Assembly: GCA_025463415.1 (NCBI GenBank)
Contig: JAOBWO010000267.1
Span: 1 to 38,945 of the forward strand
DNA from: Acidimicrobiales bacterium
Lineage (GTDB): Bacteria > Actinomycetota > Acidimicrobiia > Acidimicrobiales > Ilumatobacteraceae
Direction: 5' to 3'
DNA: 38,945 nucleotides
The notes under the pieces are model-generated. The model did not search any database. It saw only the letters and a program-made list of their open reading frames with translations, and was not told the origin of the DNA. Positions 11,012-13,056 of the stretch are shown in pieces. Each line of letters opens with the position of its first letter. Positions within the stretch are counted from its first letter, which is position 1. A program made the translations under genes and the position numbers.

Positions 11012-11617
11012 TTACGGGCCAGGTGCCGGCGCAGCGCCGGTGCTGAGCGCGACGACCGCGTTGCGCTCGTTGGCCGCTGCTGCGACGGTCGGGGCATCGG
11101 CGAGCGGCACGGCGATGACGACGTCGGTGGCACCGACCTCGACGATGACGGCCGAGCCGGCGATCGCGATGCCTCCGCCGAGTACGGCGGCCGAGTCGCC
11201 CACGGTGAACAGGCCGGGGTTGGCGACGTCAGTGATGTCGATCGCCAACCAGCCATCGGGGATCAGTGCCTGCGGTCCGGTCGAGTCGACGACGTCATCG
11301 CCGACCACGATCTCACCCCGACGGATCCGCTGCGTCGCCGTCGCTTGGGCGGGCACGGCGGCCAGTGCCGACTCCGGGACGAGGGCCTGAGGTACCTCAC
11401 GCGGCTCGACGGCGCCGGCGACGGGATCGCCCGCGACCAGGTCCTTCGTCGCGACGTAGACCGTGGTGGAGTGGCCCCAGGCATCGCGCTCGCGTCGAAC
11501 TCCGGCGAGACCCGACGCGACCGAGCCACCGACGCCGAGCGCGAGGATCCCCACGAGCACCCACCGGATCCACGGCCGCCGAGCCAATTGCATGCGAACG
11601 TTCGCCAACAGCCGCAT
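11012..11617 (-). CDS. Membrane-anchored SAF-domain protein (CpaB-like)
   Basis: 201 residues: a short cytosolic N-terminus, one membrane segment (about residues 17-38) and an external SAF domain beginning VYVATKDLVAGDPV, followed by RIRRGEIVVGDDVV. The family resembles CpaB/FlgA/RcpC proteins that help assemble pilus or flagellar parts, but no pilus genes are present. In many actinobacteria a protein of this kind sits beside the FmdB-like and galU genes, so it probably belongs to that envelope block. ATG 11617 follows a good AGAGGGG ribosome site, unlike its leaderless neighbours. The gene is 88 bp downstream of the FmdB-like gene on the same strand. Confidence 0.75.
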   Translation of the reverse strand: MRLLANVRMQLARRPWIRWVLVGILALGVGGSVASGLAGVRRERDAWGHSTTVYVATKDLVAGDPVAGAVEPREVPQALVPESALAAVPAQATATQRIRRGEIVVGDDVVDSTGPQALIPDGWLAIDITDVANPGLFTVGDSAAVLGGGIAIAGSAVIVEVGATDVVIAVPLADAPTVAAAANERNAVVALSTGAAPAPGP

Positions 11618-11705: not shown

Positions 11706-12095
11706 TCAGTCGCTGCTGGCGGCCTTGGCCGGCGCGGCGGCCGGTGTGCTGGTGCTCGACGACGACTCGCCCGACGAGGGCTTGGCCGATGACGACTTGG
11801 CCGGCGTGTCGCTGCTGGACGACGAGCTGTCGGAGGACGACGAGCTGCTGGACGCGTCGCCGGAGGCCGAGCCGGCAGCGGTGGACGAGCCGGACGTGCT
11901 GGAACCTCCGCGGCTGTCGGTCTTGTAGAAACCGCCACCCTTGAAGGACACGCCGACGGGGAGGAAGACCTTCTTGACCGGCATCGTCTCGCCGCTGGCG
12001 GGGTGCACTGCCTCGGTGAGCGCATCGTCGCTGAAGGCCTGCTGGACTTCGATCGTCTCACCGGTGTCGATGAACTTGTAGACGTAAGTGGGCAT
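11706..12095 (-). CDS. FmdB/Ruc-like small protein without zinc-ribbon cysteines
   Basis: 129 residues. Residues 1-60 match the FmdB family (MPTYVYKF, QAFSDDALTE, VGVSFKGGGFYKTDSR); the rest is a low-complexity Ser-rich tail. Mycobacterial Rv0991c (Ruc, a redox-regulated chaperone) has the same layout, with a CxxC...CxxC zinc ribbon and a disordered Ser-rich tail, and is encoded in the same place next to galU. Here the positions expected to be Cys (8, 11, 29, 32) are Phe, Thr, Ala and Pro, and the whole protein has no Cys, so zinc binding and thiol switching are impossible. It is divergent from galU with 76 bp between starts. A TATCGT box (12143-12148) and a purine stretch (GGAGAG) precede the start. 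Confidence 0.8.
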   Translation of the reverse strand: MPTYVYKFIDTGETIEVQQAFSDDALTEAVHPASGETMPVKKVFLPVGVSFKGGGFYKTDSRGGSSTSGSSTAAGSASGDASSSSSSSDSSSSSSDTPAKSSSAKPSSGESSSSTSTPAAAPAKAASSD

Positions 12096-12171: not shown

Positions 12172-13056
12172 ATGCGAGTACGTACGGCCGTCATCCCCGC
12201 CGCCGGCCTCGGCACCCGGTTCCTGCCGGCCACCAAGGCCGTTCCCAAAGAGCTCCTCCCGATCATCGATGTGCCCGCATTGCAGCTGGTCATCGACGAA
12301 GCCGTCGGGGCCGGCATCGATCACGTCGTCATCGTCAACAGCCGCAGCAAGCCGTCGATCGAGGCATACTTCGCCGATTCACCTACCGTCATCGAGAAGT
12401 TGATCTCCAGCGGCCGGGCCGAGATGGCCGAGCGGCTGCAGGCGATCGGGCGCGACGTGCGGATCAGCTTCGCCTACCAGGACGATCCCCGCGGCCTCGG
12501 TCATGCGGTCGGCTGCGCTCGCGACGCGGTCGGCGACGAGCCCTTCGCCGTGCTGCTGCCCGACGAGTTGATGGGCACGAGCGAGCTCCTCGCCGCGATG
12601 TGCGAGGTGTGCGTGTCCACCGGCGGCAGCGTGGTGGGGCTGAAGCGGGTCCCGCTCGAGGACGTCAGCGCGTACGGCGTGATCACACCCCGCGGCGAGA
12701 TCGATGCCGACGGCGTGATCGCGATCGCCGACCTCGTCGAGAAGCCTGCCGTGGCCGACGCGCCGAGCGACCTGATCATCATCGGCCGGTACGTGCTGAC
12801 GCCGGATGTGTTCGACGCGATCGCCGAGCTGCGCCCCGGCGCCGGCGGCGAGCTGCAGCTCACGGATGCGTTGCGGGTCCAGGCCGCCTCGCGGCCATTC
12901 CACGGCGTGCTCCGCGACGTGCGCCGGTTCGACACCGGGAACCCGATCGGCTGGCTGGGCGCCGTCGTCGAGATCGCGCTCGAGCACCCGACCTACGGCC
13001 CGGGCATCCGCGCCGAGCTGGAGCGCCTGCTCGGCAACGGAGCGCCTCCGCGCTAA
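12172..13056 (+). CDS. galU: UTP-glucose-1-phosphate uridylyltransferase
   Basis: Makes UDP-glucose from UTP and glucose 1-phosphate for envelope glycans and glycolipids. The 294-residue protein has the nucleotidyltransferase signature IPAAGLGTRFLPATKAVPKELLPI at the N-terminus, then FAYQDDPRGLGHAV, LLPDEL (metal-binding Asp), LVEKP and GRYVLTPDVF, all typical of GalU. Length is normal. In many actinobacteria a 5-formyltetrahydrofolate cyclo-ligase gene lies between the FmdB-like gene and galU; it is absent here. The stop overlaps the convergent glycolipid-binding gene by 4 bp (13053-13056). Confidence 0.95.
   Translation: MRVRTAVIPAAGLGTRFLPATKAVPKELLPIIDVPALQLVIDEAVGAGIDHVVIVNSRSKPSIEAYFADSPTVIEKLISSGRAEMAERLQAIGRDVRISFAYQDDPRGLGHAVGCARDAVGDEPFAVLLPDELMGTSELLAAMCEVCVSTGGSVVGLKRVPLEDVSAYGVITPRGEIDADGVIAIADLVEKPAVADAPSDLIIIGRYVLTPDVFDAIAELRPGAGGELQLTDALRVQAASRPFHGVLRDVRRFDTGNPIGWLGAVVEIALEHPTYGPGIRAELERLLGNGAPPR

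Follow-up and report, generated by a model that had tools for sequence, protein, structure and literature searches.

Within the window, i.e. the whole stretch of 38,945 nucleotides that was analysed, an open reading frame at 11706..12095 on the minus strand encodes an FmdB/Ruc-type protein of 129 residues plus the stop, recognised from its translation and its relatives. The N-terminal part of the product, MPTYVYKFIDTGETIEVQQAFSDDALTEAVHPASGETMPVKKVFLPVGVSFKGGGFYKTDSR, includes a conserved core of 62 residues (11910..12095, minus strand; defined by alignment and by the AlphaFold2 model), which represents a former zinc ribbon, and is followed by a Ser-rich tail of low complexity (11709..11909, minus strand) that is presumed to be disordered from its composition. 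The translation contains no Cys. The galU gene, encoding UTP-glucose-1-phosphate uridylyltransferase, is placed divergently at 12172..13056 on the plus strand and starts 76 bp from the Cys-free gene; a galU link is presumably also a feature of mycobacterial Ruc. Downstream and co-directional is a gene for a SAF/CpaB-like membrane-anchored protein (11012..11617, minus strand; identity judged from sequence), which is often kept beside the Cys-free gene in relatives. A link of Ruc to chaperone genes is reported from other phyla; in this near flank no chaperone gene adjoining the Cys-free gene was recognised, the neighbours being galU and the SAF-like gene. The conserved core, the Ser-rich tail and the galU linkage that the initial annotation had described were all found. 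In one relative (L088:3001-3831) the FmdB frame continues into the SAF-like gene as one frame of 277 aa, either a real fusion or an assembly indel, and its single Cys lies far downstream of the core, within the apparent read-through into the next gene. A second copy of the start of the Cys-free gene, truncated at a contig end (L139, G005:C625:5-55), has its own divergent galU and is possibly an assembly duplication.

The assignment of the protein to FmdB/Ruc holds. Its best matches in their respective libraries are PF09723 (Zn_ribbon_8) and TIGR02605 (CxxC_CxxC_SSSS), both spanning most of the core, but the scores, 16.6 and 19.3 bits, lie below the curated cut-offs of 34.4 and 31.3 bits, respectively. 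Such scores are expected because the Cys columns are gone; the two CxxC knuckles of the FmdB zinc ribbon are absent from this protein and family-wide. Across the whole core the protein can be aligned with relatives in the order's other families, with which it shares the motifs PTY.Y, Q.F and KVF..VG..FKG.GFYKTD, and the divergent galU is found in both groups (101 of the 116 Cys-free loci and 17 of the 22 Cys-bearing loci). Several galU-linked FmdB proteins of the order (family f71, L310-L313 and L335) share V5, VQQSFTD and KVFTPVGVTFKG with the Cys-free proteins; in contrast to these, they retain four Cys, arranged as CxxC and either CxxC or CxC. The core of L310 (family f71), MPTYVYKCLECAQQFDVQQSFTDPTLTESTCPSCGTTRPVRKVF, is equal in length to the Cys-free cores, with a mean identity of 62% and a maximum of 68%. 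Homology and shared descent with the FmdB proteins are clear at the sequence level from three things: the alignment of the core, the common galU, and a relative whose core has four Cys and the same length.

Since its length is equal, the L310 core can be aligned with the Cys-free cores without gaps, and from this alignment the zinc ligands were replaced as C8F, C11T/S, C31H and C34S/T/D. In the gene at 11706-12095 the four former ligand sites are occupied by F8, T11, H31 and S34. The initial annotation had cited positions 8, 11, 29 and 32 and reported Phe, Thr, Ala and Pro; the residues are as stated and the first two sites are right, but the other two are displaced by two residues from the homologous positions, H31 and S34, due to the shorter canonical Cys spacing. 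Among the Cys-free copies, F8 is present in 115 of 115 and H31 in 114 of 115, V5 is invariant, and site 11 is occupied by Thr or Ser. An alternative metal site was considered, H31 being nearly invariant; nonetheless, site 31 is Asn in one copy (L137) and F8 is not a possible ligand, therefore no credible four-ligand site was seen.

The loss of Cys had been presented as a peculiarity of one gene; instead, it is common to the Ilumatobacteraceae. All the intact core copies read in this family (115 of 115, representing 93 distinct DNA sequences) are Cys-free, and the gene is present in 35 of its 37 genomes, the two without a match being incomplete (63% and 89%). In a species-level collection the best 80 loci are all Cys-free in the core, and the record of Ilumatobacter nonamiensis YM16-303 (L095) carries this form. 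Outside the family, no Cys-free FmdB was found among the matches read, which cover only part of the weaker ones, in samples of the order (347 genomes), the class (198) and the phylum (297), with the proviso that the order and phylum searches could miss a loss that arose independently in a core of very different sequence. In the order search the scores drop from 124 bits in the Ilumatobacteraceae to 102 bits for the four-Cys proteins of family f71; among the phylum genomes the drop is to 70 bits. No previous report of a Cys-free FmdB/Ruc protein was found in the open-access literature. In a tree of GalU proteins, a single branch (support 100/100) separates the Cys-free group from the remainder, and the distribution fits a single loss on the branch leading to the Ilumatobacteraceae; this is a single-gene tree with only a midpoint root, and the sister family is not settled by it.

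Elsewhere in the order the orthologues keep their Cys ligands, mostly with a divergent galU, and variation in the ligands is also seen. Ligands of the type CxxC plus HxH are found in L314, L317 and L341 (family f17 and a relative), in which the second Cys pair is replaced by a DHxH motif, possibly forming a C2H2 ligand set, and many FmdB proteins of the class show CxxC plus HxxC. In family f29 (L258, L324, L326-L329) the first knuckle is CxxT and the longer second knuckle has two Cys, i.e. a partial loss. The Cys-free form was not found in any viral contig, although relatives of the Cys form are encoded in at least 561 viral stretches; many viral contigs (L170-L249) carry short four-Cys FmdB proteins that often end right after GFYKTDN without a Ser-rich tail.

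The median dN/dS of the Cys-free core is 0.17 (pairs of the same length with 0.2<dS<1.5); judged by this ratio, the core is under purifying selection, in agreement with the initial view that the gene is not decaying. AlphaFold2, run with an alignment of 66 rows of Cys-free sequences and without metal, predicts a confident beta core in the absence of zinc, with strands at residues 3-8, 14-18, 28-30 and 37-44 and a block pLDDT of 90-93 over residues 1-40. A Cys4 control from viral contigs showed an equal strand order with a pLDDT of about 80, the two alignments being so unlike in depth and diversity that these values are no measure of relative stability. As AlphaFold2 frequently builds zinc ribbons with no zinc present, the model is no proof of stability either. 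A Foldseek search with the model gave no match at E<=0.001; the RNA-polymerase-binding protein RbpA occupied the top rows at E 0.19 and was not counted as evidence. The search of solved structures with a Cys-bearing orthologue returned only weak matches to ribosomal L32, zinc-finger and rubredoxin proteins (best E 0.047).

Holdase activity and assistance of DnaKJE are characteristic of Ruc as a redox-regulated chaperone. In Mycobacterium tuberculosis, the four Cys of Ruc (Rv0991c) bind one zinc and the zinc form is inactive; oxidation brings about the release of zinc and activation, the disordered tail is needed for chaperone activity, and the variants C8S,C11S and C29S,C32S carry no zinc and show activity in the reduced state (PMC7448276). 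The initial statement that chaperone activity depends on zinc-bound cysteines was in consequence imprecise, given that it is the zinc-bound protein that is inactive and the reduced Cys-to-Ser variants that are active. Its suggestion that the protein may work without a redox switch agrees with our results: the zinc-binding, oxidisable Cys switch of Ruc is absent, with no Cys and an invariant Phe at a former ligand, and since all four Cys are lost, any work of the protein in the Ilumatobacteraceae could not be controlled by it. The Ser-rich hydrophilic tail of the Ruc type, presumed disordered, is present, with a median length of 57 residues in the Cys-free group and 63.5 in the Cys-bearing group and a similar composition in both.

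Given that zinc-free Cys-to-Ser Ruc is constitutively active, by analogy the natural Cys-free form looks switch-less. We regard as evenly balanced the proposal that this protein is the Ilumatobacteraceae orthologue of galU-linked Ruc, with its ligands replaced, a metal-independent core and no zinc-release switch, and always available. Along the stem of this family, the zinc ligands would have been substituted (C8F, C11T/S, C31H, C34S/T/D) and the beta core would have become independent of metal, probably by means of hydrophobic packing (invariant V5, Y6 and F8) together with an HPxxG turn that is conserved. The KKVFxPVGVxFKGxGFYKTD stretch and the Ser-rich tail have been kept, and for that reason the work on partners or clients was most likely kept as well, in a protein that is always available. 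The end state would be a Ruc without the switch in which oxidation triggers the release of zinc; we infer that it does not bind zinc and has a chaperone-type function with a constitutive, redox-insensitive activity.

The activity of Ruc tracks the loss of the zinc-held state, so that a core which folds stably in the absence of zinc might just as well resemble the inactive form; moreover, FmdB proteins may have roles beyond that of the one chaperone tested. The main rival is a stably folded protein that is not a chaperone, whose core has a different, conserved role in binding (e.g. to partners in transcription, the membrane or the cell envelope) and in which zinc was purely structural and replaceable by hydrophobic packing. 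We consider this somewhat doubtful, albeit worth serious attention. In line with it, the core and the KVFxPVGVxFKGxGFYKTD motif are highly conserved in both the Cys-free and the Cys-bearing groups, the predicted fold is strong, the neighbours are galU and a SAF-like gene and not chaperones, and changes of ligand also occur in other members of the order and class (C29H, CxxC plus HxH, CxxT). However, the Ser-rich tail, whose counterpart in Ruc is needed for chaperone activity (PMC7448276), has been retained with little change in length or composition, and the fold search gave no match at E<=0.001 that would point to a partner. A switch-less Ruc is the most economical reading, in a choice that sequence cannot decide.

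The initial annotation had pointed out that a second, Cys-containing FmdB gene would count against its finding. Such a gene is present in the source genome (L001, G000:C186:6279-6506, minus strand), and its product, MPLYDFRCKTCDDTFEV...GGGCGSACGCHH, shows a CxxC...C arrangement and the Cys-rich C-terminus GGGCGSACGCHH. This FmdB2 (pattern MPLYxFRCxxCD...GGGCGxxCGCHH) is not linked to the Cys-free gene and is widespread in the order, including 24 of the 37 Ilumatobacteraceae genomes. It could be proposed from this presence that FmdB2 took over the redox role and left the Cys-free copy as a drifting remnant, which we consider very improbable: the Cys-free gene is under purifying selection with invariant new residues, FmdB2 also occurs in families of the order whose Ruc keeps Cys4, and it was not found in several near-complete Ilumatobacteraceae genomes, including the single-contig G020. 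Being a distinct paralogue that co-occurs with Cys4 Ruc and is missing in some genomes, FmdB2 does not refute the loss, nor is it a simple explanation for it, and the finding stands. Although the source genome is fragmented (482 contigs, estimated 76% complete), an assembly, binning or sequencing artefact has practically no probability and, together with chance and decay, is excluded by the dN/dS value and by family-wide recurrence, every intact core copy being Cys-free and the identical core type appearing in dozens of independent assemblies, among them L095 and the single-contig genomes G020 and G027.

For lineages that lack Hsp33, Ruc is the proposed redox chaperone. Hsp33 is rare where Ruc dominates (PMC7448276); it was found in none of the 61 genomes that we searched. 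We put forward, tentatively and by analogy, that a whole family may carry a natural, constitutively active and redox-blind Ruc, its ribbon re-stabilised by hydrophobic packing, with no Hsp33 found; evolution would have made permanent the condition that arises in M. tuberculosis Ruc when its Cys are mutated to Ser. A protein whose switch was erased and that is still under selection represents a natural experiment, in which the work of core and tail can be separated from that of zinc and thiols, and it raises the question of whether redox sensing is the conserved job of Ruc in the first place. This experiment is open to testing, since there are named strains of Ilumatobacter.

The Cys-free protein and Ruc (Rv0991c) both have a small N-terminal core of like layout and a hydrophilic tail, but the thiol switch and the Cys4 zinc site are present only in Ruc. 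The laboratory Cys-to-Ser variants are alike in the loss of Cys, and differ from the natural form in that the latter has F8 and H31 fixed. C-minus ribosomal proteins are zinc ribbons without Cys ligands. The Topo_C_Rpt repeats of topoisomerase IA are likewise described as zinc ribbons that lost their Cys ligands (PMC9369019). All of these are ribbon-type domains that occur without zinc ligands; the Cys-free FmdB protein differs from them in that the site lost was also a reported regulatory redox switch.
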